Shown piece after piece: positions 15,893-63,988 of a stretch of DNA of 64,000 nucleotides. Location: assembly GCA_002716355.1 (NCBI GenBank), contig PBAU01000003.1, positions 62,001 to 126,000 of the forward strand, in the 5' to 3' direction. The position numbers and the translations under genes are program-made. The stretch is from a bacterium (lineage in GTDB: Bacteria > UBP7 > UBA6624). Positions within the stretch are counted from its first letter, which is position 1. Each line of letters opens with the position of its first letter. The notes beneath the pieces are model-generated. The model searched no databases, was not told the DNA's origin, and worked only from the letters and a program-made list of their open reading frames with translations.

Positions 15893-16678
15893 ATGAATAA
15901 TTTTAATTTTAGAAAAAAGGTTGTTTCTTTATTGGAGAAAGGTAATAATTTTGCAATTGCAAAATTAATCTTAGTAAATGGACATGCTCCTCAAAAACCT
16001 GGGACAGCTATGATTGTGCACAGCGACAAAAGTATTGATTTCACGATTGGTGGAGGCCCTTTTGAAGCTGAGGTTATATCTGATGCAGTTGATTTAATTA
16101 ATTCAGGCAAGAAAATCATTCAAAAAACTTATAAGTTGAACATTAAAGACTTGGGGATGTATTGTTCTGGTGAGGCTGTCGTGTTGATTGAGGCAGTGCA
16201 GCCTCCCCCAAAATTATTCATATTTGGAGCAGGTCATATTGGGGCAAAGTTAGCAAAAATTGCTTCTGAGTTGGATATTTTTAATATTTTTTTGATTGAT
16301 GACAGAAAAGCTTTTTTAAACAAGCAGGATTTTTGTGATTGGGAAAATGTCAATCTTGTTCATACAGATGCAAAATGGATAAAAGGCATACCTGAAATTG
16401 ATCCTGCTTCATTTTTAGTGATTTTAACTAGATGTCATGCAACTGATAAAATCCTTGTTAAAAATTATGCTGAAGTTAAGCAAGCCTATATTGGAATGCT
16501 TGGGAGCAAAAGTAAAGTAATCAAGATGTGGAAAGAGCTTGAAAATGAAGGTCTGAATCCCCATTCACTTAAAAAGGTCCATGCGCCTATCGGCTTGAAC
16601 CTAGGAGGCAAAAACCCTTCTGAAATTTCAATTTCAATTTTGGCCGAAGTGTTAAAGGTTAAGTCGAATTTATCTTAA
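15893..16678 (+). CDS. xdhC: XdhC-family molybdenum hydroxylase maturation factor
   Basis: XdhC proteins bind the molybdenum cofactor, help sulfurate it and insert it into xanthine-oxidase-family apoenzymes. The N-terminal XdhC_CoxI domain shows 'IGGGPFEAEV' and 'MYCSGEAVVLIE'. The C-terminal Rossmann-like domain has 'LFIFGAGHIGAKLA', 'LIDDR', 'YIGMLGSKSK' and 'APIGLNLGGKNPSEISISILAE'. I chose the ATG at 15893 (261 residues) over a TTG nine bases upstream. It is divergent from the hydroxylase operon across a 70-bp region, and pairs with the MocA-like gene as the second maturation factor. Its 3' end overlaps the convergent ABC permease gene by 9 bp. Confidence 0.92.
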   Translation: MNNFNFRKKVVSLLEKGNNFAIAKLILVNGHAPQKPGTAMIVHSDKSIDFTIGGGPFEAEVISDAVDLINSGKKIIQKTYKLNIKDLGMYCSGEAVVLIEAVQPPPKLFIFGAGHIGAKLAKIASELDIFNIFLIDDRKAFLNKQDFCDWENVNLVHTDAKWIKGIPEIDPASFLVILTRCHATDKILVKNYAEVKQAYIGMLGSKSKVIKMWKELENEGLNPHSLKKVHAPIGLNLGGKNPSEISISILAEVLKVKSNLS

Positions 16679-47530: not shown

Positions 47531-49513
47531 TTAAATCCCGTTTTTTTTAAGCTCTTTTTTGAAAAGCTCAAATGCTTGATTTATTTCAGAATCTTTATAT
47601 GATTTTTTACCATCTCCAATAACAAGCCTCCAGGTTAGATTCCAATTTTCCTTTTTTTTGTAAACATCAAATAGGTAAATTTCATGAATCAAATCTAGTT
47701 TTATTTTTGCAATAACTGAGGTTACTTTCTTGACTTCATCTGAACTTTTTGTATTAACTGTTAAATCTCTGTGTGAAAATTTATGACTTGGTAGCTCTTT
47801 TGCTTTTTGTTTTGGCATCGGCCATAAAATTTTTAATTCAAGCTCGCAAGACCACACTAGCTCCTTTTTGCTCCCTATCTCTATTTCAATAGCTCCTAAC
47901 AGGCCTTGAAACACTTTCGCTTCTATCTTTAATGCCGAAGAGTCTAGAAAGTAATTGTTTTTTACGTCAAAATAAAAGACTTCTGAGTTCCATTTTTGAG
48001 CAATACTTTCAAGTATCGTTTTGATGAGTCTTGATCCGCCATCTTCCTCAGGGATGAGAAGGCCTAAATGTAAGCTTTCTTCATTTTCTTTAAAAACTTT
48101 TCCAACCTCAAAACTCCAAGTAGACTGAAAATCTTTTTTTCTTGAATCTTCATGGCCCTTCAGCAAGCATGCTGATATGGAATTCCTAAGAAAAGCTTTT
48201 TCTTTTGAACGAGGGTTTAATAATTTTACTGGCTTATTTTCTAAAACTGATTTTCCAAATAATGTTAGACCTTCAGAGACAAGACTTGATCTTATTTCTT
48301 GCCTGCCCCCAAAGGACAAAAGAGTATCTATGAGAAATTCTTCCAGCTGAAAGATGTCATCCATTTTTGAAGTTTTAATTTGAATTTTTGGAAGTGTTTC
48401 TTTTAGGCCCGTGTAGCCATAAACCCTTATAACCTCTTCGATAAGGTCTTCAGGAATGGACAAGTCAGTTCTATGTGATGGAATCAGCCACTCACCCTTC
48501 CTTAAGCCCTTTTTTCTTTTTATCTTCCAGGAATCATTCCAATTCCCCTCTCTGTCCTTCGATATCTGCCTAATGCCTAAGCTTTCTAAAATTTGAACCA
48601 CTCTCTCTTCAGGTATATTCATCCCTAATCTTTTATTTATCTCAGAAGCCTTAATTGATATTGAATGATTTTCTAAAGTTTCTTCTACTGAGCTTGCAGA
48701 ATAAACTTGATTTGTCCAACCCAAATTATCAAGCCACCATAAATACCTTTTTGCACCTAAAAGAAAGCCTTTTGGATCAACTATTCTTTGAAATCTGTAA
48801 GATGAATCTGTTGAAAGGTTTAACCTGTTTGCGCTTTGTCTGGTTGATGAATTTTTAAAACAGGCAGCTTCTAGCAAAAATTCAGAATCCGAGACATCAG
48901 AAGAACCTTTTTTTGATCCAATTATTCCAGCTAAGGCCAAAGGCTCATTTGATTTATTTTGGACAAGAAGGTCTCCAGCTTCAATTTCATAAGATTTATC
49001 ATCAAGGGCATTAAATTTGATCTTTTTGTTGGCTAATGAAATTTTTACCCCATCATTCATCACATTGAATGGAAAAAGATGTAAAGGCTGACCTGTTTCA
49101 AAAAGTACATAATTTGTTAGGTCGACAAGTGGGTTTATGGGGTTTCTGCCCATAAGCTTAAGCATTTTTTCAATATGAGCATTTGCTTCAGGTTTAATTT
49201 TCAAATGTACGCCTAAATAAGACTGGCAATTTTTACTTTCTATTTTTATTGGGTATTTGTTGTCTATTGGGAAATCTTTCAATTCCAATTTTTTTATTTC
49301 TAGGTTTTTTGCAGTTGCAAATTCTCTTGCCAAACCATAGATTGAAAGGACATCAGTTCTGTTGCTAGGTGTGCTTAAATCTAAAACTTTCTCGCCTTCA
49401 ACTTCAAGTATTTCTTCACATTCAAACCCTATTTCAGTGAATATGTCAGCTATCTCTTGTGTTGAATAGCTGCATTGTATGAACTCCTTTAACCAGCAAA
49501 TCGGAAGGCGCAT
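47531..49513 (-). CDS. pheT: Phenylalanyl-tRNA synthetase beta subunit, short form
   Basis: 660 residues against about 790-800 in E. coli. It begins 'MRLPICWLKEFI', as normal, but then runs from 'ILEVEGEKVLDLSTPSNRTDVLS' (read across about 36-58) straight into the B3/B4 editing region ('VDLTNYVLFETGQPLHLF'). The N-terminal tRNA-binding (EMAP/OB) domain of some 110 residues is missing. The B5 domain ('HRTDLSIPEDLIEEVIRVYGY'), the catalytic-like module and the ferredoxin-fold anticodon-binding domain ('HKFSHRDLTVNTKS') remain. The partner pheS is at 24763. First gene of the pheT-rib operon, about 10 bp after the small 53-codon gene. Confidence 0.93.
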   Translation of the reverse strand: MRLPICWLKEFIQCSYSTQEIADIFTEIGFECEEILEVEGEKVLDLSTPSNRTDVLSIYGLAREFATAKNLEIKKLELKDFPIDNKYPIKIESKNCQSYLGVHLKIKPEANAHIEKMLKLMGRNPINPLVDLTNYVLFETGQPLHLFPFNVMNDGVKISLANKKIKFNALDDKSYEIEAGDLLVQNKSNEPLALAGIIGSKKGSSDVSDSEFLLEAACFKNSSTRQSANRLNLSTDSSYRFQRIVDPKGFLLGAKRYLWWLDNLGWTNQVYSASSVEETLENHSISIKASEINKRLGMNIPEERVVQILESLGIRQISKDREGNWNDSWKIKRKKGLRKGEWLIPSHRTDLSIPEDLIEEVIRVYGYTGLKETLPKIQIKTSKMDDIFQLEEFLIDTLLSFGGRQEIRSSLVSEGLTLFGKSVLENKPVKLLNPRSKEKAFLRNSISACLLKGHEDSRKKDFQSTWSFEVGKVFKENEESLHLGLLIPEEDGGSRLIKTILESIAQKWNSEVFYFDVKNNYFLDSSALKIEAKVFQGLLGAIEIEIGSKKELVWSCELELKILWPMPKQKAKELPSHKFSHRDLTVNTKSSDEVKKVTSVIAKIKLDLIHEIYLFDVYKKKENWNLTWRLVIGDGKKSYKDSEINQAFELFKKELKKNGI

Positions 49514-49522
49514 TTGTTTATT

Positions 49523-49684
49523 CTATCTTCCAAGTGTTGCTGTGCTCTCGCCACCAGGCCTTTGTTCAAGATCTTGAAGATTCATAACTTGACCATTTTT
49601 TTCATATTTAAAATTTAACTGCGCTCTGTAAGAAAAAGCAGCTACTAAAAAAATTAAAACAAAAATATAAATTCTTTTCTTCAT
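49523..49684 (-). CDS. Small 53-residue membrane or exported peptide
   Basis: ATG at 49684 to TAG at 49525-49523, 53 codons. A clear AAGGTGA Shine-Dalgarno (about 49693-49687) partly overlaps the stop codon of the large Ig lipoprotein gene, so the two are probably co-translated. The peptide starts 'MKKRIYIFVLIFLVAAFSYRA', a signal-anchor-like segment, and the remainder 'LNFKYEKNGQVMNLQDLEQR' is hydrophilic. It sits between the surface cluster and pheT. No family recognised. Confidence 0.6.
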   Translation of the reverse strand: MKKRIYIFVLIFLVAAFSYRAQLNFKYEKNGQVMNLQDLEQRPGGESTATLGR

Positions 49685-49695
49685 AATATCACCTT

Positions 49696-52600
49696 CTATT
49701 TCGTGTCAACAATAACCTCGTCAATTTGCCAACCTGCACCAACCACACCATCAGCATTTCCATCTCCATCTAAAGTTTGATCATCTTCCCCCCAGAAGAT
49801 AAAGCAAACGTATTTGCCTCTAAATGGACTAAGGTCAATTGTTCTTTTGTTTCCAATCGAACTTCCTCCTGCATTTGCAAAAGTATCACCAATGCTATTG
49901 CTGTAAAGCCATACGTTTCCACCCATGTAACAATCATCTATTTGTGTATCGCTCCACCTTACAACTATGCCAAATGTGCTTGGGCTGGGAGTTTCGTAAA
50001 GCTCGTTAAACAACAACCTTGTCCAGCCTCCCTCTGACACGTAATAACCATTAGCACCGGTTGAATCACCTGAAGGGTATGGGTAAGTTATCTGTAGAGC
50101 TGTGTCGTCATATGTCCATCCATCTAGGTAATTACCAGTATTAGTGTTGGTTCCAGTCATCCACATCTTGCAGTCAAGATTTCCATCGTCACCAGGTATA
50201 ACCCTCCACCATTGACTGTCATCTATCCAGTAGCCCATTTCAGTCCATGTATGTTGATCTGTACAGCTAGACCCATCACCAGGGAAAGGCTCGTAAAAGA
50301 GAGTCTTGGTGAAATCAGGTTGTTCTACAAGCTGTATATTGTCAAAAATAAATCCTGTATCAACATCTTCAGCATTAGTTCTTTGAGCTAACCCTATGCA
50401 AACATTTGAATTTCCTGCAAATTCGCTAATGTCAAGATAAAGGTATGTCCAGTCATTTGTATCAAGAGATGGATTCGTAACTCCAGTATCAACATTGACA
50501 AGCTCATTTACTATAGGGGTATACTGTCTCCATTCTCCAACAAAACAATTATCTGAATTACCTATATCTGTATTAACCCAAAGACGAATGTCTTCAAAAT
50601 CTTCAGCCGGCCTATTTAGCTGATGTGCCAAAACCAAAGCAGGATTGCTTGTTAATGAAAGATCTAAAGCTTTTTGGGTTATAAAAATAGGATCTTCATC
50701 GTTATCGTATTGTTGGGTATCTGGATTCCAGCCAGCTATCCAGGATTGGCCAGAATATGAAGCATTTGCTACCGAGCTTGACCAAACTTGGAAATAGGAA
50801 GTTTCAGTGTTTCCAAAAGAAGTTGAAACCCAATTTCCAGTACCAGCTACTTCGTCATAAAGAACATCTCCCTCAAAATTATCATACATATAAGTTGGAT
50901 ATGTCAGAGATGTTTCTGGCCCTGCTGCAGTTCCTGTTGACCCATCATCTGCAACAGCTTGGATACCATAGCAATATTTTGAATTTAAATTCAGGTTGCT
51001 TAAAACAGTTCCGCATTTTCCATCAGAGCAGCTAATGGTTTCTGATGTGCTGTCATAAGAGCCGCTATCAATTGCTGGACATTCTGATTTATTTCCATTT
51101 GAGGAATTGCTTAATGCATGAGTGTAAATCAAATATTCACATTCTCCATTTGAGGAATCTACAGGATTGCAGTGCGACAATTCATAATCCCAATAGTTAT
51201 CTTCCCACTCAAGCTCAACATCTGTTACAGCTAAAGAGGTAAAGAAAGATCCCTCCATGTTTGGGCCAGAAAGAAACATGCCAATTAAATCGGTAATAAT
51301 AACCCAGTCATAAGACGCAGGAGACGGATCAGTTAAACCGCCAGAATTTGTTGCCCTTACTCTGAAGTTGTTTTCTCCGTAAGGCAAATCGAAAGAGTAA
51401 TTTTTTGGACTTGTACATGACTCCCAGGATTCTTGATTCAATGAACATTCAAAAGTTGCCTCTGGATCATCTGAACTAAATGTGAAATCAGCTGTGTTGA
51501 AAAAGGTTTTTGAAGGTGGAGAGCTGTTTATAAAAGTATCTGGAGGCAAAATGCTTGAATCAACATTCCAATTCCAAACAGCAGGAGTTAAATCAACATT
51601 TCCAGCAGCGTCAATTGCCATAACTTCAAAAGTATGAGCTCCATCTAAGAATCCAGAATAATCTTGAGGGCTTATGCATGATTCCCATACGCCATTGTCA
51701 ATCTTGCATTCAAAAGTGCTGTTTGCTTCATTACTTTCAAAAATGAAAGTTGCTGAAGAGTCTGGTGTTGGATCAGGAGGACCATCTGTTATTGTTGTTT
51801 CTGGCTCAGTTTGGTCTATTCTCCAAGTCCATGAAGCTGGTGTTAAATCTTCATTGCCAGCTTCATCAATTGATTTAACCTCAAACGTATAGACATCTTC
51901 AAGAAGGTCTGAATAAGTTTTTGTCCCTCCATTGCATTCTTCCCATTCAATATCATCTCCTGAAACAGCGTCAAGCCTGCACATAAAGTAATCTGTCGGT
52001 TCATCATCACGATACACAAAAGAAGCTGAGGTTGAAGCTGTTGGGTCATTTGGTCCAGAATCAATATATGTTTCTGAAGGTGTTGTGTCTATATCCCAAG
52101 ACCATGAATCCCCTGTTGTATCAGTGTTTCCAGCTTGATCAGTAGCATAAACCTTGAAAACATGGCTCCCTTCCGCTAAATCACTAAAGGTGATTGATCC
52201 GGTGTTGCACTCAGTCAAATCACCACCATCCAACTCACATTGGAATGTAGCATTTGGATTTTCAGGACTTTCATATGTGAAAGTTGGAGCGGTGTTGTTT
52301 GAAGGGTTGGAAGGCCCTGTGAGAATCACTGTAGTTGGATTGATGGTGTCTATGCTCCATGTCCAAGCATCTGCAGCACCTAAGTTCCCTAAGTCGTCAG
52401 TTGATCGAACTTCAAACACATGATTTGTATTTTGCTCTAAGTTCAAATAAGTTTTTGGGCTTTCACAGGATTCCCATTCGCCATCATCCAATTTACACTC
52501 AGATGTTGAAGTTTCATCTGTAGACCATTCAAACACAGCATCTATGGAGTTGGTTGGATCCATAGGTGCGGAAGTTATTGATGTTACCGGTCCTGTTATA

Positions 52601-55600
52601 TCTATCAACCAGTTGTATTCAGAAGGAGTTGGATCAATGTTTCCAGCAAGGTCTTGTGCCCTTGTTGAAAATGTATGGCTTCCGTCTGTTAATTCGATGT
52701 AAGCTATTCCGCTTTGGCAAGCTTCCCATTCTCCATCATCCAACTTACATTCAAAAATTGCATCTGTGTCTGAGGGGCTTGAGAATGTAAATATCGCTTC
52801 AGTGGATGTTGTTGGGTCTGTTGGAGTTGAATCAATTTGGGTAGTTGGAGAAACTGTGTCTATTGTCCAGGTCCATACTGCTGGAGATACATCTTCATTT
52901 CCAAGAGAGTCAAAAGCTCTAACTTCAAATGTGAATTCACCGTCTGTTTGAGAGGGGTAAGCTTTTGGGCTAGTGCATGATTCCCAATCAGGAAGAACTG
53001 GTGATAACCTACATTCAAAAGTTGCTTCTGGGTCATCAGAAGACTCTTTGAATTCGAATGCTGGAATAGTTGCATTTGTAGGATCGTCAGGACCATTCGT
53101 TATTTCAGTTTGAGCACCTGTGGTGTCAATATTCCAAGTGTGTTCAGCGTTTGCACCTTGCACTTCAATGTTTCCTGCAAGATCCACACTCCAAGCCTTA
53201 AATACCCACTGCCCTTCAGCCAATGAAGAGTAATCTGCAGAATAAGATCCGTCTCCTTGGTCTGTCATTTCATTTGCCTGGCATGTTCCATCATTTGAAA
53301 TGCAATAAAAAACTGAAGTTAAGCCAGGAAGTGTTTCCCATGGTTGATCCTGAACACTGACTTCAAAAGTCCCGTCTGTTTCATTAGACGGGTCAGAAGG
53401 TGAACTTGTTATTGTGGTTACAGGAGCAGCTCTGTCTACATTTGTTGTGCTTTCTGCTGGCGTTGCATCAATGTTGTTTGCTGCATCCCAAGCCCTAACC
53501 ATAAATGTATGTGTTCCTTCAGCTAGAAGCTCATATTCTTTTGGACTTGTGCAGAAATTCCATGAACTCGCTGATGAGAATTTGCATTGGAAGAAAGGAG
53601 CTTCTTCATCTGCAGAGAAATGCCAAGCTATGATGTCTTCATTTGTGTATATAGCAGGCTCTATGGTTATGTTTGTCTCAGGTGGAGTTTGGTCTATTGT
53701 CCATTCTCTTTCAGCAGGTGTCGGATCGGCTGTGCCTACATCATTTAAGGCCCGAACATAAAATGTCTTAATTCCTTCTGTCAGGTCAACATAAGCTTTT
53801 GAACCCGAACCATTTATGCCATTACAAGAAGTGTAAACAGTTTCATCAGGACTCAACATACATTCAAAAATACTATCTCCTTCAGGGTTTGTAAAGGTGA
53901 AGGTAGCATTATTTACATTTGTTATTCCGCTAGGGCCTGAAGTTATTGCTGTATCTGGTATTGAAAGGTCTATTGTCCAGGTGTAACTTGCAGGGCTGCT
54001 ATCAATGTTTCCTGCAACATCTTGTGACTTGACATAAAAAGTATGTTCTCCCCCAGACATGCCAGAATAAGTTTTTGGACTTGTGCATGATTCCTCCCAT
54101 TCACCGTCATCCAGCTTGCATTCGAAAATACTACCTGTCTCGTTTGAAGTAAATTCAAAAGTTGCCTCATCAGAACCGGACAAGGATGAAGGGCCTGAGT
54201 CAATTGTTGTATTTGGATCGGTGGTATCTATGGTGAATGAATATGAATCAGGATCACTTATATTTCCTGCAAGATCAGTTGCCCTTACCTCAAAAACATA
54301 TGCGCCTTCTTGATTCAAACCAGAATACTGCCAACCTGTTCCAGGACAAGATTCCCAATCTACATTAATGCCACCACTAAGCTTGCATTCAAACCACCCA
54401 GCAGGAAGTGTATCTTCATTGCTTGAGTAAGTGAATGCAACAGTTGTTTCGTTTGTTGGGTCGTTAGGACCAGAATCCACAGAGACTTCTGGCTTAACAG
54501 TATCAACTGTCCAGCTTAAAGTTTTTTCAACATCTGCAATTTCAGCTATCTCAATATGATGAGCTTTAACTATTAAATTCTGAGAACCTTCAGGCAGGCC
54601 AGAAGCAAGCCAATAATGTCCATCAGTATCTTTGTCATTGCAGTCAAACCAACTTGAATTGTTCAGATTGCACTCAAAAGAAACCTTTTCTTCAGGGTGA
54701 TTCATTTCTTCAAAATATATCTTCAAGCCTGTAACTTCATTTGAGAAATCTCCTTCTTCAATATCACTAGGAGGGTTTGCCTTAAAGCGAAGCTCTAAAG
54801 GTTGATGCTCTATAACAGCAAAATAATCGCGTTCATCAGCATCATCACCATCTATCGTTTCATTCCCAAGAGAATCAACCACCTTGTATTGAATGAAATA
54901 TTCGTCAAGGCTTGATTCAAGAACCGGCAAGTTAGTATAAACCGCATTGTAAAACTGTCCACCATCAGATGCTAGCTGCCATGAGCCCTCAAAAGATACA
55001 ACTGAACCATCTTCTGCTCTGAATATGAACATTTGATAGTAAGCCGTATCAATATCATTAGAGTCACCATCTTCAGAGTCATTTCCAAATTCAAAAGTAA
55101 TTTGATCTTCAAAAACGATTTCGGCACTATCTGGATCTCTTGTCTTGTGCGTTATGGAAGGGCCTGTTATATCAATTGTCCATTCATGAGATTTGGATGC
55201 AGAGTTCTCCAAGTCATCCAAGCTATCAACCCTAAAGTCATGTTCACCTTCTGTTAGAGCTGTAGGTGAACCGTAAGAAAATGGACTAACACACGGATCT
55301 GTTGTAACTCCATCTAGTACACAAGATGCACTAACTCCATCATGGGTAAAAGAAATTTGACCACTTGTAGCATTTGTTGGGTCATTGGGAACTGTCTCTA
55401 GGTTTATTGTTGGCCCAGTTGTATCAACCGTCCATGTGAAAGAGGCAGGAGTCTTGTCTTCTTTTTGGTTGTCGTCAAGAAGGTAAGCTTTAACCTGGAA
55501 AGTGTACTGGGCATCTTCAAGGTTTGGGTAAGTCTTGGTTCCGCCTGGGCAACCTTGCCACCCTGCTCCATTGAGGCTACATTGGAAACCAACTGCTTCA

Positions 55601-55788
55601 GTTGATGATGTGCTGAAGCTGAATGTCGCTGTTTTTTGATTAGTTACACCTTCAGAACTAATGCCCATTGAGTTGTCGTCAATTGATGTATTTGGAGCAG
55701 ATGGCCCTGTATCACCCCCTCCTCCACCGCCACCACAAGCGACAAAGATAAAAGCAAAAGCTATAAATATAAAATTAATTTTTTTCAT
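49696..55788 (-). CDS. Very large Ig-repeat lipoprotein with C-terminal binding domains
   Basis: 2,030 residues from the ATG at 55788 (AGGTG Shine-Dalgarno; a GTG 9 bp upstream is less likely). A lipobox ends the signal: 'FIFVAC' with Cys 18, then a run of Gly. About 15 Ig-like modules of some 85-100 residues follow, each ending 'TWTID' or similar, with one Cys pair per module ('FECKLDDGEWE.C'). One module at about 340-440 begins 'LRFKANPPSDIEEGDFSN' and has a sister in the subtilase. After a fibronectin-like part, two MAM/immune-inhibitor-A-like beta-sandwich domains close the protein (about 1,650-1,830 and 1,840-2,030). Likely a surface adhesin or binding scaffold. A 24-bp palindrome lies 39 bp upstream of its start codon. 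Confidence 0.88.
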   Translation of the reverse strand: MKKINFIFIAFAFIFVACGGGGGGGDTGPSAPNTSIDDNSMGISSEGVTNQKTATFSFSTSSTEAVGFQCSLNGAGWQGCPGGTKTYPNLEDAQYTFQVKAYLLDDNQKEDKTPASFTWTVDTTGPTINLETVPNDPTNATSGQISFTHDGVSASCVLDGVTTDPCVSPFSYGSPTALTEGEHDFRVDSLDDLENSASKSHEWTIDITGPSITHKTRDPDSAEIVFEDQITFEFGNDSEDGDSNDIDTAYYQMFIFRAEDGSVVSFEGSWQLASDGGQFYNAVYTNLPVLESSLDEYFIQYKVVDSLGNETIDGDDADERDYFAVIEHQPLELRFKANPPSDIEEGDFSNEVTGLKIYFEEMNHPEEKVSFECNLNNSSWFDCNDKDTDGHYWLASGLPEGSQNLIVKAHHIEIAEIADVEKTLSWTVDTVKPEVSVDSGPNDPTNETTVAFTYSSNEDTLPAGWFECKLSGGINVDWESCPGTGWQYSGLNQEGAYVFEVRATDLAGNISDPDSYSFTIDTTDPNTTIDSGPSSLSGSDEATFEFTSNETGSIFECKLDDGEWEESCTSPKTYSGMSGGEHTFYVKSQDVAGNIDSSPASYTWTIDLSIPDTAITSGPSGITNVNNATFTFTNPEGDSIFECMLSPDETVYTSCNGINGSGSKAYVDLTEGIKTFYVRALNDVGTADPTPAEREWTIDQTPPETNITIEPAIYTNEDIIAWHFSADEEAPFFQCKFSSASSWNFCTSPKEYELLAEGTHTFMVRAWDAANNIDATPAESTTNVDRAAPVTTITSSPSDPSNETDGTFEVSVQDQPWETLPGLTSVFYCISNDGTCQANEMTDQGDGSYSADYSSLAEGQWVFKAWSVDLAGNIEVQGANAEHTWNIDTTGAQTEITNGPDDPTNATIPAFEFKESSDDPEATFECRLSPVLPDWESCTSPKAYPSQTDGEFTFEVRAFDSLGNEDVSPAVWTWTIDTVSPTTQIDSTPTDPTTSTEAIFTFSSPSDTDAIFECKLDDGEWEACQSGIAYIELTDGSHTFSTRAQDLAGNIDPTPSEYNWLIDITGPVTSITSAPMDPTNSIDAVFEWSTDETSTSECKLDDGEWESCESPKTYLNLEQNTNHVFEVRSTDDLGNLGAADAWTWSIDTINPTTVILTGPSNPSNNTAPTFTYESPENPNATFQCELDGGDLTECNTGSITFSDLAEGSHVFKVYATDQAGNTDTTGDSWSWDIDTTPSETYIDSGPNDPTASTSASFVYRDDEPTDYFMCRLDAVSGDDIEWEECNGGTKTYSDLLEDVYTFEVKSIDEAGNEDLTPASWTWRIDQTEPETTITDGPPDPTPDSSATFIFESNEANSTFECKIDNGVWESCISPQDYSGFLDGAHTFEVMAIDAAGNVDLTPAVWNWNVDSSILPPDTFINSSPPSKTFFNTADFTFSSDDPEATFECSLNQESWESCTSPKNYSFDLPYGENNFRVRATNSGGLTDPSPASYDWVIITDLIGMFLSGPNMEGSFFTSLAVTDVELEWEDNYWDYELSHCNPVDSSNGECEYLIYTHALSNSSNGNKSECPAIDSGSYDSTSETISCSDGKCGTVLSNLNLNSKYCYGIQAVADDGSTGTAAGPETSLTYPTYMYDNFEGDVLYDEVAGTGNWVSTSFGNTETSYFQVWSSSVANASYSGQSWIAGWNPDTQQYDNDEDPIFITQKALDLSLTSNPALVLAHQLNRPAEDFEDIRLWVNTDIGNSDNCFVGEWRQYTPIVNELVNVDTGVTNPSLDTNDWTYLYLDISEFAGNSNVCIGLAQRTNAEDVDTGFIFDNIQLVEQPDFTKTLFYEPFPGDGSSCTDQHTWTEMGYWIDDSQWWRVIPGDDGNLDCKMWMTGTNTNTGNYLDGWTYDDTALQITYPYPSGDSTGANGYYVSEGGWTRLLFNELYETPSPSTFGIVVRWSDTQIDDCYMGGNVWLYSNSIGDTFANAGGSSIGNKRTIDLSPFRGKYVCFIFWGEDDQTLDGDGNADGVVGAGWQIDEVIVDTK

Positions 55789-55826
55789 AAAGTGCACCTA
55801 AAACCTATAAAACCTAGAGTTATTGT

Positions 55827-55850
55827 ATACATTTATATATATAAATGTAT
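55827..55850. promoter_or_regulatory. Perfect 24-bp palindrome upstream of the Ig lipoprotein gene
   Basis: Left half ATACATTTATAT (55827-55838) is the exact reverse complement of the right half (55839-55850). It lies 39 bp upstream of the ATG at 55788 and 11 bp after the nuclease gene stop. A TACAAT directly after it on the minus strand may be the -10 element of the lipoprotein gene. A near-identical site is at 61566-61588 in front of the subtilase gene. Confidence 0.75.
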
Positions 55851-55860
55851 TTAAAAAAAA

Positions 55861-56646
55861 TCATTCAAAAAGATAACCAAACCAATCATCTAGATTTATT
55901 GTTGATTCAATACTGTCTTCTATTGAGTCAGGCAGCATATGAAAGAAATCAATTCCAGTCTCTTGCTCTACTTCGTCTACTGATTTTGCAAAACTGGAAA
56001 GAGGTTGGTCTGAGCTTTCGTTAGCCAATATAAAACCTATTGCTTTGATTTCTGGTTGAGTGTAGTCTAAAACCACCTTGTAATAATGGGATGGAACAGA
56101 AACGTTGTTCCCCCCTATCGTGTCTAATATTGGATAACCATCGCCAAAAACAGGACCTGTAACTATATGAATCTTGTCATTTGTTTTTGCAGCATCCCTT
56201 ACATCCGCCTCAAGATCTTTCCAAATGTAGCGGTTAAATCCTGCAAGCTGAGGAGACATGTTTGAAAGAAAAAAGGATTCACTCATTGCTGTATGATCCC
56301 ATTCCATATCTCCTGCCGGAGCCAAATGGCCCCTATCGTACCCAGAGCCACTATAGTCACTCAATGATGCTGAACCATTTTCAACTGCTGGATCTTCCCT
56401 ATAGTCATCCGTTCTTTCCATATCGGAAGATGCCTGTTCAGAGGTTAATGTGTAAGCAACCCATAATGCTTGTTCATGCTCTTCACTATAGCTTAACGTG
56501 TAAGCTGTATGTGATATTATCTCTTCTTCTTCCGAGTAGTATGGGAGGCTGGCTTCCTCATCGCTTAATGGAACATACAAAACATTATCTGAGTCGCATG
56601 AAATAAAAAAAGCAAACAAGGTTAACAGCCTGATTAATTTAAACAT
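55861..56646 (-). CDS. NUC1-type DNA/RNA non-specific endonuclease, lipoprotein
   Basis: 261 residues. A lipobox ('LFAFFISC', Cys 17) anchors it to a membrane. The beta-beta-alpha-metal nuclease motif 'DRGHLAPAGDM' (catalytic His 107) is followed by 'FFLSNMSPQLAGFNRYIWKDLE' (read across about 125-146), with the Asn that binds Mg2+. This family cuts both DNA and RNA outside the cytoplasm. Its start overlaps the subtilase stop (TAATG). Placed between two huge surface proteins, it probably belongs to the same extracellular degrading system. Confidence 0.92.
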   Translation of the reverse strand: MFKLIRLLTLFAFFISCDSDNVLYVPLSDEEASLPYYSEEEEIISHTAYTLSYSEEHEQALWVAYTLTSEQASSDMERTDDYREDPAVENGSASLSDYSGSGYDRGHLAPAGDMEWDHTAMSESFFLSNMSPQLAGFNRYIWKDLEADVRDAAKTNDKIHIVTGPVFGDGYPILDTIGGNNVSVPSHYYKVVLDYTQPEIKAIGFILANESSDQPLSSFAKSVDEVEQETGIDFFHMLPDSIEDSIESTINLDDWFGYLFE

Positions 56647-59600
56647 TATTGAATGACGGTTATGTAATTGCTTACAGTAGGTGTCGTTTCAAGTTGCACA
56701 ACACTTGGATTCTCGTTTGGCACAATGTCAGAATAGTTCTGAATGCTGATGTTGTAAGTTTTGCTTACAGAAGGATTGCTATCTCCTCCACCACCACCAC
56801 AAGAGGTTACAAAGAGAAGGATTGCAAAAACACCTGCGATTCTCCTTTTCTTAATTACCGCTAAACTCATGAATGCAAGAGCAAAAATCAATTCAATATC
56901 AAAAGGCATAGAAGCAAGAGATGAATCACCAGTAAAATCATATGTAATAAGATAGATTATTTCATTTACCCCATTGTCAATGCCTTGTTCATCGTCAAGT
57001 GTTATTGTTACAGTGCCATTATCTGCATTAAATTCTTCTTCGCCAAGATTGCTTTCGCTGTCAGGAATACCATCAGAGTTCATGTCAAGCCAAATTTCAA
57101 CTAAGCCTATATCGAGTTTGTCATTCCCTGTTCCAGATGCTCTTAAAGTTATTTCGTTTAATTGGTTTTGCCCAGTTATCGGACCATCAGTTTTAATGTA
57201 AGAGAACCTAAAGACAGGTTGCTGGATTCCTGAAGGCTCGAAATCTAAAGTAATAGCTGGAACAGGATTTTCATGCTTTATAGAAATGTCATATATAGCA
57301 TCAACTATAAAGTTTCTTGTTTCGCTACCACCAATATTCCCATTTATCAGAGCTCTTACTGTAAAGCTGTTGCTGCCATCTTCCATGGCTGATATTGTGT
57401 GTGAGCCTTCTCCATCAGAAAGAGTATCTCCATTGCATGAAACCCAATCTGTATTATTGCTGTCCTGGCATTCAAAGTTTGCATTTGTATTTGAACTATT
57501 AAAAGTAAACAATGTAGAAGAATTATGGATTTCCTCACCTTCTTGAGGTCCACTGATTATTGTTACATCAGCCGTTTCGGTTTCTATTGTCCATGTATAT
57601 GAGTCAGCAGATTCATCCTGGTTGCCAGCAAGATCAGTTGCCCTCACCTCAAAAGTGTGGGTTCCTACAGTAAGGTCTGCATAAGTTTCAGGACTTGTAC
57701 AAGACTCCCAGCTAAGCTCATCCCTTCTGCATTCAAATGTGCTATTTGGCTCACTGCTTTCAAAATGGAAAGTTGCAGTAATATCTGTTGTTGGATTGCC
57801 CGGTTTTGGATCATTGATTGTTGTTTCAGGTCTAACTGTATCAACAGTCCAATCATGGGCTGCAGGGCTTTGATCAGTGTTTCCGGCTTCATCTGTTGCC
57901 CTGACCTTGAAGATGTGCCAACCCTCGGAAAGGTTGTTTATCTCATAAGGGCTTGTGCACGAAAACCAGTGACCATCAGCTGTTTTCTCACATTCGAATG
58001 TGCTGTTTGGCTCACTGCTCTCGAAATCAAACACTATCGATTGGCTATTTGTGAGATCGGGAGGGTCATTCGTTATTGTTGTTTCAGGGCTATCTGTGTC
58101 TATTGTCCAATTCCATTCAGCAGGGGTGCTATCTTCGTTACCTGCCTCATCGATTGCCTTTACAAGGAAGTTATGTAGACCTTCAGCTAAACCAGAAAAT
58201 AATGAGCCTGAGGTACAAGGTATCCAATTACCCTGATCAAGACTGCATTTGAAAGTAGCATTTGAATCGTTGGATTCAAAAACGAATGTTGCTGAAGTTT
58301 CATTTGTTGGATTGTCTGGTCCTGAGATGATTGTAGTGTTTGGCCCTGTTTGATCTATATTCCAGGACCAAGATGGATCATCACTTATGTTTCCAGCTTG
58401 ATCAGTTGCCTGAACCTTGAAAACATGAGAACCATCTGGAAGATTGCTGTATACTTTGGGGCTTGTACATGATTCCCATTGATTGTCATCTAATTTGCAT
58501 TCGAAGCTGACAGATTCATTGCTTTCAAATTCAAATGTTGCTTCAGCTGAATTTGAAGGATCTGAAGGGCCATTTGTTATGTCAACTGTTGGAGCCACAG
58601 TATCAACGGTTATATTTCTTAATTCAGCTAGTCCAACATTTCCAGCTTCGTCGATTGCTCTTACCTCAAAAACATGGGCGCCTTCGCTAAGTTCTACGTA
58701 AGTTTGTGGACTTGTGCACGTTTCCCATCCTGAAGAATCCATATTGCATTCAGTCGTTGAAGGCTCATCAGCTGAAAATTCATATGTCACTGTACTGCTT
58801 GCCCAATAACCTTCTGGCCCAGAGTCTATTGTTGTTACAGGAAGGGTAAGGTCAATAGTGATTGTTTTTGAACTGCTTTCCGAAATGTTTCCTGCAGGAT
58901 CTATTGTCCTGAAATGGAATGTATGGCTTTCTTCAGCAAGTCCTGAATATTCTTTAGGGCTTGTGCAAGCGCTCCAAGGTTCAAGTTCTTTACTGCATTC
59001 ATATGAAGAATCTTCCTCATTGCTTGAAAAGCTGTATGAAACTGTTGATACGTTTATTTTTCCCTCAGGTCCACTAACTGAAACAACAGGTTGAGTAAGG
59101 TCAATTTCCCAATTGTGGGTATCACTCCCTGTGTTTCCAGATTCATCTTCTGCGACAACAACAAAAGAATAATTATCCTCACCAAGAGAATTGTAAGTAT
59201 ATGGAGAAGTGCAATTAATCGCACTGCTTCCATTCAAGCTGCAGGTAAATGTTGCCATTGGATCATCTGACTCAAATTCAAAAATGGCATTAGTTTGATT
59301 TGTTGGATTATCTGGTCCTGAATTTATCGTGACGGAAGGAGCAAAGTCAATTGTCCATTCCCAAATTGCAGGCTCGCCAACATCGCCCTCTCCTGTAGCC
59401 TCAATTGCTCGTACTTCAAAAACATGCTGCCCTTCATCAAGACCTATGTACACTCTTGGGCTTGTGCAATTGCCTGCTTCCCAATTTTCACTATCTAGCT
59501 TGCATTCAAATATTACATTCGGTTCATCACTTGAGCTGAATGTAAAAGTTGCATCAGGGCTGGCGCTTGGGTCACTTGGACCAGAATCTATTGTTGTTAT

Positions 59601-61538
59601 TGGGGCTATGTCTATATTCCATTCAAACCATGGCGGAGTGGGATCTACATTGCCTGCTTGATCGATTGCTCTAACCTCAAAATTATGTGTTCCTTCGCTA
59701 AGGTTTGTATAAGTTTTTGGACTTGTGCATGTCTCCCATGGAGCATCATTGAAAGCGTTCCAATCAAGTCTGCATTCAAATGTTGTGGTGCTGTTTTCTC
59801 CTGAATTTGTATTTTCAAATTCAAAAGTGGCAGAATTTTCACTGGATGGGTTTGGCGGACCTGATATTATCACTGTATCTGGAGGATTTGAGTCCAACGT
59901 CCAAGTAATCGTCTCATCAACAAACTGTCCATTATCATGTGTTGCCCTTACGGTTAATGACTGCCCTCCATCAGCAAGCGCACCTGACTCCCAATAGCTT
60001 CCATTCTCATCAACACTATTGCAGGCATTGAAGCCAGACATCATGTATTGACAAGAATAAGAAATCTCACTTTCTGGGTAATTTGTTTCAAAATATACCC
60101 TTACATCATTATCTTTATTCGAAAGATCTCCTTCTTCAACATCACTAGGAGGGTTGCCTTTGAATGTTAACGAAATAGGCGCTGTTGAAGCACAAGGTGA
60201 ATTTAAAAGATTGAACATGTTGTTCATTCCCTCGGAAACAGACAATCCCTGAAGAGATGATATGTCAGCTGCAGCATCGATTAAAGCTTGTTTTACTTCA
60301 ATCCTTGTATCATCTGGACACTGGGTCCATCTTAATGCAAGAAGCCCTGCTGTTTGAGGTGTTGCACAAGATGTGCCACCAAAAAGAGCATAACAGTCAT
60401 CAGACCCAGAACTGTCAGCACTGCAATACGGCAATATTCCACATCCAATATCAAAGCTAGCAAAACCATGAACATCAACACTGCTTGAACCGTAATTGAA
60501 TTCGTTATCACCTGCCTGGTCAAGAGCACCTACGGCAACCACATGGTCGTTCCTCGCACTTGCTGGCAAGCTCCACCATTGGTCATTGTCCCTTGTTTCA
60601 TTTCCAGCAGCAGCAACAAAAAGGCCATTGAAAGAATCTATTATTGCTTCTTCTGCCTCAACACAAGCCATATCAACATTGCCAGGACTAAATGTACACC
60701 CGTAATGCCCATAGCTTGCATTGAATATTTTTGCTCCAATAGCATTTGCATAATCAATGGCTTCGGTCATTCCGCCTATGCATTGCCATGCTCCGTCACA
60801 CCAGACAGCTTCAGAATAATGTGAAAGCTGAGCTGTCCATGCAGCACCAACAGAACCAACACTATTGTTTCCTCTTGCTGCAACAGCACCACCAACACCT
60901 GTTCCATGATCCCCATGAAGGTTTATAAAACATCCATGAAAATCATCTATACAGCCATTATTGTCATCATCAACACCAGGGCTTCCATTTATCTCAGCTG
61001 TGTTTTGCCAAAGGTTGTCAAGCAGGTCTTCATGTGACTCCCTGAAACCTTGGTCATGAACCAAAACAATCACACCGCTTCCGTCAGTTGATATGTCCCA
61101 ACCCTGTGGAGAGTCCATGTCATACCCACCACCTGAACCAGCACCTACAGGATCCTCATGGTTTTTATGAGGCCAAACATAATAACCATCCCCAAACATG
61201 TGATCGTAGTATTCATCATTTGGCTCGGTGTCTAAGATTCTCCTCACTGTATCTTCATAAATAACAGCATACTTGGTAAAAGATTTGCCTTTCACATCAT
61301 CTAATATGCTTAATCTATCTGAACTATTAACAATTATCCTGTAAACCCAAGAGATGCTGTTGCCTTGCCATTCAATTTCTCCATTACCCTCAAGCCAATT
61401 TAAAAATTGGTCTCTTTGCGATTCCTCGATATGGACGTACATCCTTGATTGTTGCCATTCTTCTGAACCATGCTCTGCAGTAGATTTAGATCCAATCAAG
61501 CATAAAAAGATAAACAGAAAATTAAATAGTTTATTCAT
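56646..61538 (-). CDS. Secreted subtilase (S8) with about ten Ig-like repeats and a double C-terminal tail
   Basis: 1,630 residues from the ATG at 61538; an ATG at 61562 would run into the rnpB control region. Signal peptide (about 1-22), I9-like propeptide (about 30-95), then the S8 protease: Asp 162 in 'LVHDQGF', His 211 in 'GDHGTGVGG', Asn 313 in 'AAGNE' and Ser 390 in 'GGTSCATPQ'. After one unusual module ('LTFKGNPPSDVEEGD') come about ten Ig-like modules as in the neighbouring lipoprotein. The C-terminus has a hydrophobic span (about 1547-1562), KKRR, a second span, and 'FVTSCGGGGG' (Cys 1580), a complete lipoprotein leader fused in frame. Predicted to digest external protein. Confidence 0.92.
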   Translation of the reverse strand: MNKLFNFLFIFLCLIGSKSTAEHGSEEWQQSRMYVHIEESQRDQFLNWLEGNGEIEWQGNSISWVYRIIVNSSDRLSILDDVKGKSFTKYAVIYEDTVRRILDTEPNDEYYDHMFGDGYYVWPHKNHEDPVGAGSGGGYDMDSPQGWDISTDGSGVIVLVHDQGFRESHEDLLDNLWQNTAEINGSPGVDDDNNGCIDDFHGCFINLHGDHGTGVGGAVAARGNNSVGSVGAAWTAQLSHYSEAVWCDGAWQCIGGMTEAIDYANAIGAKIFNASYGHYGCTFSPGNVDMACVEAEEAIIDSFNGLFVAAAGNETRDNDQWWSLPASARNDHVVAVGALDQAGDNEFNYGSSSVDVHGFASFDIGCGILPYCSADSSGSDDCYALFGGTSCATPQTAGLLALRWTQCPDDTRIEVKQALIDAAADISSLQGLSVSEGMNNMFNLLNSPCASTAPISLTFKGNPPSDVEEGDLSNKDNDVRVYFETNYPESEISYSCQYMMSGFNACNSVDENGSYWESGALADGGQSLTVRATHDNGQFVDETITWTLDSNPPDTVIISGPPNPSSENSATFEFENTNSGENSTTTFECRLDWNAFNDAPWETCTSPKTYTNLSEGTHNFEVRAIDQAGNVDPTPPWFEWNIDIAPITTIDSGPSDPSASPDATFTFSSSDEPNVIFECKLDSENWEAGNCTSPRVYIGLDEGQHVFEVRAIEATGEGDVGEPAIWEWTIDFAPSVTINSGPDNPTNQTNAIFEFESDDPMATFTCSLNGSSAINCTSPYTYNSLGEDNYSFVVVAEDESGNTGSDTHNWEIDLTQPVVSVSGPEGKINVSTVSYSFSSNEEDSSYECSKELEPWSACTSPKEYSGLAEESHTFHFRTIDPAGNISESSSKTITIDLTLPVTTIDSGPEGYWASSTVTYEFSADEPSTTECNMDSSGWETCTSPQTYVELSEGAHVFEVRAIDEAGNVGLAELRNITVDTVAPTVDITNGPSDPSNSAEATFEFESNESVSFECKLDDNQWESCTSPKVYSNLPDGSHVFKVQATDQAGNISDDPSWSWNIDQTGPNTTIISGPDNPTNETSATFVFESNDSNATFKCSLDQGNWIPCTSGSLFSGLAEGLHNFLVKAIDEAGNEDSTPAEWNWTIDTDSPETTITNDPPDLTNSQSIVFDFESSEPNSTFECEKTADGHWFSCTSPYEINNLSEGWHIFKVRATDEAGNTDQSPAAHDWTVDTVRPETTINDPKPGNPTTDITATFHFESSEPNSTFECRRDELSWESCTSPETYADLTVGTHTFEVRATDLAGNQDESADSYTWTIETETADVTIISGPQEGEEIHNSSTLFTFNSSNTNANFECQDSNNTDWVSCNGDTLSDGEGSHTISAMEDGSNSFTVRALINGNIGGSETRNFIVDAIYDISIKHENPVPAITLDFEPSGIQQPVFRFSYIKTDGPITGQNQLNEITLRASGTGNDKLDIGLVEIWLDMNSDGIPDSESNLGEEEFNADNGTVTITLDDEQGIDNGVNEIIYLITYDFTGDSSLASMPFDIELIFALAFMSLAVIKKRRIAGVFAILLFVTSCGGGGGDSNPSVSKTYNISIQNYSDIVPNENPSVVQLETTPTVSNYITVIQ

Positions 61539-61565
61539 GTCAGCACCACTAATCATATACAAAAA

Positions 61566-61588
61566 ATACTTTTATATAATAAAAGTAT
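61566..61588. promoter_or_regulatory. 23-bp palindrome between the subtilase gene and rnpB
   Basis: ATACTTTTAT (61566-61575), a 3-bp ATA centre, and its exact reverse complement (61579-61588). It ends one base before the mapped 5' end of RNase P RNA and 28 bp upstream of the subtilase start codon, so it could control either gene. On the minus strand it is followed by six T residues. It differs from the palindrome at 55827 only at the fifth base and its mirror position, plus one base in the centre. Confidence 0.7.
61575..61580 (+). promoter_or_regulatory. -10 element of the RNase P RNA gene
   Basis: A perfect TATAAT ends 8 bp before the 5' end of rnpB (61589), the expected distance. No clear -35 hexamer is seen. 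The box is part of the 23-bp palindrome, so a protein bound there would cover the rnpB promoter. Confidence 0.6.
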
Positions 61589-61910
61589 GGGTGAGTTGGG
61601 TGATTGCGGGCGAAAGCCTGAGGAAAGTCCGGACTCCTAAGAGCATGGTAGTGGGTAACACCCACCCAGGGCAACCTGCGGGAAAGTGCCACAGAAACGA
61701 AACCGCCATTTGATGGTAAGGATGAAACGGTGAGGTAAGAGCTCACCAGCAAGTTGGTGACAATTTGGCTGAGGTAAACCCTGCCTGGAGCAAGGTGCTG
61801 ATGAGGAAGCTCTGCCTTTGATTCAGCAAGAAGACCGCGAGAGGTTACTGGTAACAGTAACCGCAGATAGATAATCACACAAATACAGAATCCGGCTTAC
61901 AGACTCACCC
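61589..61910 (+). ncRNA. rnpB: RNase P RNA (bacterial A type)
   Basis: 322 nt. Universal blocks are present: 'GAGGAAAGTCCGGACTCC' at the 5' side, 'CAGGGCAACCTGCGGGAAAG', 'GCCACAGAAACGAAACCGCC', 'GGTAAGAGCTCACC', 'GAGGTAAACCCTGCC', and the 3' 'GAATCCGGCTTACAG'. P1 is formed by GGGTGAGT (61589-61596) and ACTCACCC (61903-61910), which fixes the ends. It lies on the plus strand wedged between two minus-strand genes, and its last base is also the last base of the ThuA gene. Confidence 0.95.
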
Positions 61911-63988
61911 TACTCTTTATAGGTTATCTTTGATATTTTTGAATCCTCATAACCATACCAACTTTGACCGTATTCAAGGATGTAAAGATTTCCCTGTTTG
62001 TCAAAAACCATATCAACAGGACGCAAAAAATCTTCATTTGGTAAAAAATCATTTATGTGAAGGATTTCACCTTTTGAATCTAGGTGGACCTCTCTGATCC
62101 AAAACCTAGACCATTCATAAATAAAAAGTACATTTTCATAATACTCAGGAAAACCTTGTCCCTTGTAACGGTAGACAGGTCCAGCCATTGCGGACCTCCC
62201 ACCGCCTGAAAATAAAGGAAACTCTTCAGATTGAGAGTAAGGGTACCAGATAAAAGCTTCATTTGCAGCAGGTATGTTAATTGACCCTGTATTGTTTATT
62301 GAATTATTTTTTAAGTTTTCACAATCAAAATAATCAGAAGATATTTTGTTTTCAAAATCATAGCTTCTGTAAGGTTTATTGTTGGCAATACAAAAAGGCC
62401 AGCCATAATTGCCTGCTGTTCTTGCCTGGTTGATCTCGTCATAGCCCATCGGCCCCCTACTGTCATCATCCTCACTAGCATCTGGACCAATCTCCCCCCA
62501 GTAAAGCCAATTATTTTTTTGGTCAATTGATATCCTGTAAGGGTTCCTGTTGCCCATTACATATATTTCAGGCCTTCCAGAATTTGATGAAAAAAGATTT
62601 CCTTCTGGAATCTCATAACTTCCATCTTCCAAAGGCTTTATTCTCAATATTTTTCCTCTTAAGTCATTTACGTTGCCTGAAGACCTTGCAGCATCCCATG
62701 GCTTTCTTCCGTCAGTTTCGTCAATCGGGCTAAAACCGTCTGAGGCAAAAGGATTGGTGTCATCACCAGTTGAAATAAATATATTGCCATTTTTATCAAA
62801 CTCAATGGAGCCACCAGCATGGCAACAAGTTTCCCTTTGGCTTTCAACCTTAAGTATTGAAACTTCAGAACTGATTTCGAGCTTATTGTCAACAATATTA
62901 AACCTAGATAAAGTTTGATGGTTTTCTGTTGGATGTGAATAATAAACATAAATCCTTCCTGTTGAGTCAAAATCTGGAGAAAGTGCCATTCCCAACAAAC
63001 CATACTCAAGACCATTGTCTATACCTGTAAAAACATCAATAGTACCCAATTCATCAATTTCACCAGAATCAGAATTTACTTTTTTTAATTTACCAAATCT
63101 TTCTATAAAGTACACATCACCATTTGATGCAACATCTAACTCTGTTGCTCCTTCAATATCGGTTGCAATTATCTCTCTTGTGTAATTAACTGCCAAGCCT
63201 GCATCGCAATCACCATCCTTTAAACCTACAAGCCATTCTGCAGCACCTAAAAGAAGTTTTTGAAATTCTTGATTTGTATAAGTTTCTTCAGTGTGGCCCA
63301 TTCCAGTATAAAAAGAACGCCCTCCATCATAGTTATGACACCATGTTATTGGATGATCTGGCCCCATTTTCCCTTGATCAACAACAGCAAGAACATGAAC
63401 CTCACCTCTTGGATTGTGATCATAGTCATACCATTCATCGACCTTCTTCCATCTTTCGTCTAGATGCCTGGTTGATGGATGAGATTTGTCTAAAATGGAA
63501 ACAGTTCCTTCTTTTATTTCTTCATGACCAGCAAAATATGCTCCAACAAGCTTTCCATACCATTCCCAGTCATATTCAGTATCTGCAGCTGAGTGAATAC
63601 CAAGATAAGCTCCACCATTGTTAATATAATTTTTAAAATATTCCTGTTCTAAATCATTCAAAACATCACCCGTTGTATTTAAGAAAAAAACAACATCAAA
63701 ATTACTCGAAAGATCTTTGTTGAAGACTGAAGAGTCTTCAGTGAATTCCAAATCCCAACTCTCAGGCTTGAAAAAAGATGGTAAAGCTTCTATAGCACCC
63801 TCTATAGCACCATGTCTGTAACCAGCTGTTTTGGAAAAGACCAAAATTCTTTTTGGCTCTTCTTTTTTTTCTGCCACCTCTATAGCCTTGCCAACACCAT
63901 CAACAATATCAACAACACTAATTTTTTTTGCACAAGAATTTAAAAGAAGCAAGAATAAAAAAATAAAAAAAGGAAATTTAATTTTCAT
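61910..63988 (-). CDS. ThuA plus glucose/sorbosone-dehydrogenase-like lipoprotein
   Basis: 692 residues. Lipobox 'LLLLNSC' (Cys 19). The ThuA-like domain (about 45-260) has 'VFSKTAGYRHGAIEGAIEAL', 'GGAYLGIHSAAD' and 'RSFYTGMGHTEETY'. A six-bladed beta-propeller of the glucose/sorbosone dehydrogenase family follows (about 265-692), with 'YGLLGMALSPDF', 'GGSIEFDKNGNIFISTGDD', 'GNRNPYRISIDQ' and 'GNYGWPFC'. Such fusions are known mostly from planctomycetes and Bacteroidetes and are linked to sugar oxidation or degradation. Its stop codon shares one base with rnpB. It is the first gene at the right edge. Confidence 0.9.
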   Translation of the reverse strand: MKIKFPFFIFLFLLLLNSCAKKISVVDIVDGVGKAIEVAEKKEEPKRILVFSKTAGYRHGAIEGAIEALPSFFKPESWDLEFTEDSSVFNKDLSSNFDVVFFLNTTGDVLNDLEQEYFKNYINNGGAYLGIHSAADTEYDWEWYGKLVGAYFAGHEEIKEGTVSILDKSHPSTRHLDERWKKVDEWYDYDHNPRGEVHVLAVVDQGKMGPDHPITWCHNYDGGRSFYTGMGHTEETYTNQEFQKLLLGAAEWLVGLKDGDCDAGLAVNYTREIIATDIEGATELDVASNGDVYFIERFGKLKKVNSDSGEIDELGTIDVFTGIDNGLEYGLLGMALSPDFDSTGRIYVYYSHPTENHQTLSRFNIVDNKLEISSEVSILKVESQRETCCHAGGSIEFDKNGNIFISTGDDTNPFASDGFSPIDETDGRKPWDAARSSGNVNDLRGKILRIKPLEDGSYEIPEGNLFSSNSGRPEIYVMGNRNPYRISIDQKNNWLYWGEIGPDASEDDDSRGPMGYDEINQARTAGNYGWPFCIANNKPYRSYDFENKISSDYFDCENLKNNSINNTGSINIPAANEAFIWYPYSQSEEFPLFSGGGRSAMAGPVYRYKGQGFPEYYENVLFIYEWSRFWIREVHLDSKGEILHINDFLPNEDFLRPVDMVFDKQGNLYILEYGQSWYGYEDSKISKITYKE

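Follow-up and report, generated by a model that had tools for sequence, protein, structure and literature searches.

Why should two surface-protein genes of one bacterium be preceded by nearly the same palindrome? The host belongs to UBP7, an uncultured candidate phylum, and has a draft genome of 1.26 Mb; the window analysed here is a stretch of 64,000 nucleotides of that genome. The initial annotation had read the two palindromes as an operator shared by both Ig-repeat surface genes or, alternatively, as a conserved RNA hairpin. The features of the locus are as follows:

49696-55788, minus strand: Ig-repeat (Big_13) lipoprotein gene by Pfam, start codon ATG at 55788
55822-55827, minus strand: predicted candidate −10 of the lipoprotein gene, TACAAT (5/6), abutting the site 1 palindrome
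55827-55850, no strand: site 1, a palindrome in the gap that separates the nuclease stop from the Ig-lipoprotein start, ATACATTTATATATATAAATGTAT
55861-56646, minus strand: DNA/RNA non-specific endonuclease gene (Endonuclease_NS, Pfam), with an overlap at the end of the subtilase gene
56646-61538, minus strand: subtilase gene (Peptidase_S8, Pfam) with Ig-like repeats, start codon ATG at 61538
61566-61588, no strand: site 2, an inverted repeat between rnpB and the subtilase gene, ATACTTTTATATAATAAAAGTAT
61575-61580, plus strand: predicted −10 of rnpB, TATAAT (6/6), placed from the Rfam alignment, with the start at A61587
61576-61581, minus strand: predicted reverse −10 of the subtilase gene, TATTAT (5/6), overlapping the rnpB −10 in the geometry of PMC10268837
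61588-61915, plus strand: rnpB, class A RNase P RNA (Rfam RF00010, 262 bits against a gathering score of 100)

At its 3' end (61903-61915, P1 strand ACTCACCC), rnpB overlaps by a few bases the stop end of a convergent ThuA/GSDH gene at 61910-63988.

Both elements are present and intergenic as initially described, with site 1 lying 39 bp from the lipoprotein ATG and site 2 lying 28 bp from the subtilase ATG. Site 1 is fully palindromic over its 24 bp. Site 2, which had also been called a palindrome, spans 23 bp and consists of perfect 10-bp arms around a centre of 3 bases, and hence is an inverted repeat rather than a full palindrome. The reported likeness of the two sites is borne out, with the outer half-sites ATACATTTAT and ATACTTTTAT alike at 9 of 10 positions. 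The exception is position 5, which is A in one site and T in the other, with the mirror partners differing to match. This mirrored difference is real, but the compensatory change that had been read into it is not independent evidence, because both sites are palindromic and palindromes that differ necessarily do so in mirrored pairs; it tells no more than the symmetry already does.

At site 2, the position of rnpB allows a specific prediction. In the Rfam alignment, the first standard base pair of stem P1 is formed at G61589 (GGGUGAGU with ACUCACCC), and 8 bases separate it from a perfect TATAAT at 61575-61580, a spacing that places the predicted rnpB start at A61587. The earlier observation that one palindrome copy covers the rnpB −10 therefore holds, given that this box lies inside site 2. 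The centre of the site is the heptamer TATAATA (61575-61581), which reads TATAAT on the plus strand toward rnpB and TATTAT on the minus strand toward the subtilase gene, so that the −10 boxes predicted on the two strands overlap with reciprocal −7T/−11A, the signature of a bidirectional promoter. The predicted subtilase start falls at 61569, which would give a leader of ~31 nt and puts it 18 bp from the predicted start on the other strand, the commonest arrangement among published bidirectional promoters (PMC10268837; see also PMC12825309). Site 2 is thus best explained as a predicted core promoter; it is probably, in essence, the start signal of rnpB, working in both directions.

As far as the accounts in PMC10268837 and PMC12825309 go, the bidirectional promoters of Warman et al. 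(2021, Nat Microbiol, cited in PMC10268837) and site 2 share overlapping symmetric −10 elements, an 18-bp start spacing, predicted in the case of site 2, and a divergent gene pair. Site 2 differs from the promoters so described in that its symmetry reaches into 10-bp arms, beyond what the −10 elements need, and in that its start points are predictions; site 1 differs from them in lacking the heptamer. The −35 elements match at 3 of 6 positions at best at either site, and the divergent gaps of this genome show no excess of TATNATA heptamers (2 seen vs 9.6 in mononucleotide shuffles).

Site 1 appears to sit in the promoter region of the Ig-lipoprotein gene, in a different manner. It begins 10 bp beyond the nuclease stop, on the way to the lipoprotein ATG, and its last base is also part of the best −10 candidate for the lipoprotein, TACAAT, which has a predicted start near 55815. 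With the box at this edge, the palindrome would fill the spacer and the −35 region instead of enclosing the −10, so its placement relative to the best −10 differs from that at site 2. A symmetric −10 of the TATNATA type is absent from the site 1 palindrome, where no heptamer of this kind has a T in sixth position.

The explanation that we favour, at even balance, is that both palindromes belong to promoter regions, with site 2 as a quasi-symmetric divergent core promoter and site 1 as a related AT-rich element that gives the lipoprotein gene its own start. Under this model, RNA polymerase would bind site 2 in either orientation and initiate at points 18 bp apart, driving rnpB on one strand and, via the near-mirror −10 of the TATNATA heptamer, the subtilase and nuclease genes on the other, whereas site 1 would supply the Ig-lipoprotein gene with a separate start inside the cluster.

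Relatives inform this model to a limited extent. Among those with a name, the UBP7 bacterium UBA7824 (DLTY01) is the closest. In the sister species, site 2 is identical at 23 of 23 bases, but the remainder of the 50-bp rnpB-subtilase gap outside the palindrome is identical at 25 of 27; because the whole gap is conserved, the conservation of site 2 does not single out the palindrome. For comparison, rnpB is 95% identical between the two species and the adjacent subtilase codons 78%. Part of the subtilase gene of the sister species (L006, about 720-1120) reads as N, masked or unsequenced. The lipoprotein contig of that draft starts within the gene, and the nuclease is absent from the draft. In the sister genus, no palindrome precedes rnpB; the stretch fetched there is 53% GC and too distant to inform.

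Gene order around rnpB differs among these genomes. A protein with a PheT B3/4 domain directly adjoins rnpB in the sister genus, whereas in this genome and the sister species pheT follows the Ig lipoprotein. For this reason, as judged from three drafts, the surface cluster appears either to have come between pheT and rnpB, once neighbours, or to have been lost from the sister genus. In the present genome, the subtilase-nuclease-Ig lipoprotein cluster that separates pheT and rnpB measures ~12 kb (49513-61588; for the gene-order comparison also L008:3-1334 and L063:6003-6998).

The operator proposed in the initial annotation had to be considered at several scales. Pattern searches reject a genome-wide operator, for which only two copies exist. 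The exact motif occurs genome-wide at sites 1 and 2 only; a consensus search of this genome allowing up to 3 mismatches returned the same two sites plus one 3-mismatch place; and ATAC-N14-18-GTAT matches 52 places genome-wide, with sites 1 and 2 the only near-perfect palindromes among the matches listed. Both copies precede surface genes, and no copies exist beyond this cluster. Nor is the dyad a general operator of Ig surface genes, a possibility contradicted by two other Ig-like or lipoprotein genes, one with a Pfam match to Big_13/Y_Y_Y and the other recognised solely from its resemblance to the lipoprotein of the window, neither of which has the palindrome. The shared surface-gene operator initially proposed is not borne out. 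Because there are no other copies in the genome, the element looks like a local promoter feature, not a general surface-gene control system.

A narrower version of the operator is doubtful, though worth weighing: a dimeric regulator encoded elsewhere might bind ATACWTTTAT-N3/4-ATAAAWGTAT at the two sites and co-regulate the Ig lipoprotein along with the subtilase-nuclease genes. The shared outer ATAC/GTAT arms leave room for it, since neither their symmetry nor their sharing between the sites is required by a core promoter. Like the operators of dimeric repressors and activators, which are AT-rich dyads over a −10 or spacer, sites 1 and 2 are dyad-symmetric, lie over promoter elements, with the site 1 palindrome filling the −35/spacer region of the best −10, and number two per cluster; their half-sites are alike at a level improbable by chance, and the sole two copies in the genome stand 5.7 kb apart in this one cluster. 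Unlike such operators, they come with neither a recognised regulator in the window nor an autoregulated copy, the genome containing no third site and hence none before a regulator gene. Their centres differ in length (3 vs 4 bases) as does their placement relative to the −10, the central symmetry of site 2 is already accounted for by the promoter core, and binding there would cover the −10 of rnpB, a normally essential gene. The two other Ig-like or lipoprotein genes that lack the site also speak against this version. In agreement with the initial annotation, Pfam scans of 54 window proteins (7 of them without a match) revealed no recognisable DNA-binding regulator. The YebC/TACO1 protein at 19751-20491 matches a Pfam model named 'Transcrip_reg'; despite the model name, we take this family to be a translation factor, as it is nowadays seen. 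If the two-site operator were true, it would give the surface proteins of UBP7 a first regulatory site.

Chance is an improbable source of the pair, but one for which there is a ready route: AT-rich promoter DNA tends to self-complementary TATA runs, such low-complexity runs favour palindromes, and the best-looking pair was picked post hoc. Moreover, inverted repeats with arms of at least 9 bp were found 47 times, mostly within genes, in a 464-kb sample drawn from stretches of the same genome. Against this, dinucleotide shuffles produced arms of at least 12 in 0.015% of cases for the site 1 region and arms of at least 10 in 0.055% for the site 2 region, and palindrome pairs from these region shuffles had 9 of 10 outer bases in common in 0.23%. 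No comparable pair appeared among 200 simulated intergenic sets, which have average intergenic composition and so understate the local AT richness, making the region shuffles the fairer test. The likeness of the two sites is accordingly hard to credit to chance (p ~0.002, judged post hoc), which is suggestive and not proof. Within the window, there are three perfect inverted repeats with arms of at least 10 bp and loops of up to 8, two of which are sites 1 and 2; the third, TAATTTTGCAATTGCAAAATTA (15946-15967), has 11-bp arms and lies within a predicted XdhC-family gene. Separately, several of the gaps among loci L035-L054 repeatedly contain C-rich/G-rich intergenic runs, for example CCCCCCTTTATAT and GGGGGGAGACTATAGAGGGGGGATTAG, which resemble a dispersed intergenic repeat.

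The promoter and operator explanations could be combined, if this UBP7 genus had a locus-specific regulator recognising a dyad that is itself the symmetric core promoter of rnpB, the cluster being co-regulated through it and through the second copy inside the cluster; to this combination we give little credence.

Still harder to sustain is a rearrangement footprint, in which the subtilase-nuclease block (about 55851-61565) would have been inserted or duplicated beside rnpB with the palindrome carried or copied to each end. The palindromes do bracket the subtilase and nuclease genes, and the cluster intervenes here where pheT adjoins rnpB in the sister genus, but the flanks beyond the palindromes have no clear similarity by eye, and transposase and integrase families are absent among the scanned window proteins. 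Ig repeats are common to the subtilase and the lipoprotein and are up to 49% identical, yet the palindromic repeats themselves are so short and AT-rich that they cannot prove descent. No relatives of the nuclease were found in viral contigs.

Finally, an RNA hairpin on the minus strand, acting as an mRNA stability element or weak terminator, is very improbable: stems of −7.2 and −6.0 kcal/mol are predicted, six T follow site 2 on the minus strand and site 1 comes 10 bases after the nuclease stop, but the stems are not G-C-rich, each having one C-G pair, no T run follows site 1, neither site combines a G-C-containing stem with a T run after it, as an intrinsic terminator does, or is in the terminator scan list, and at site 2 the conserved hairpin of the initial annotation is unlikely, since the predicted starts fall inside the palindrome, which would be incomplete in either RNA.

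Returning to the promoter explanation, if it is true, the locus would illustrate clearly, at the level of sequence, how a symmetric divergent promoter links a surface-protein cluster of an uncultured candidate phylum with an essential RNA gene. It suggests that the symmetry of a strong promoter might bring expression to a gene cluster set beside it.
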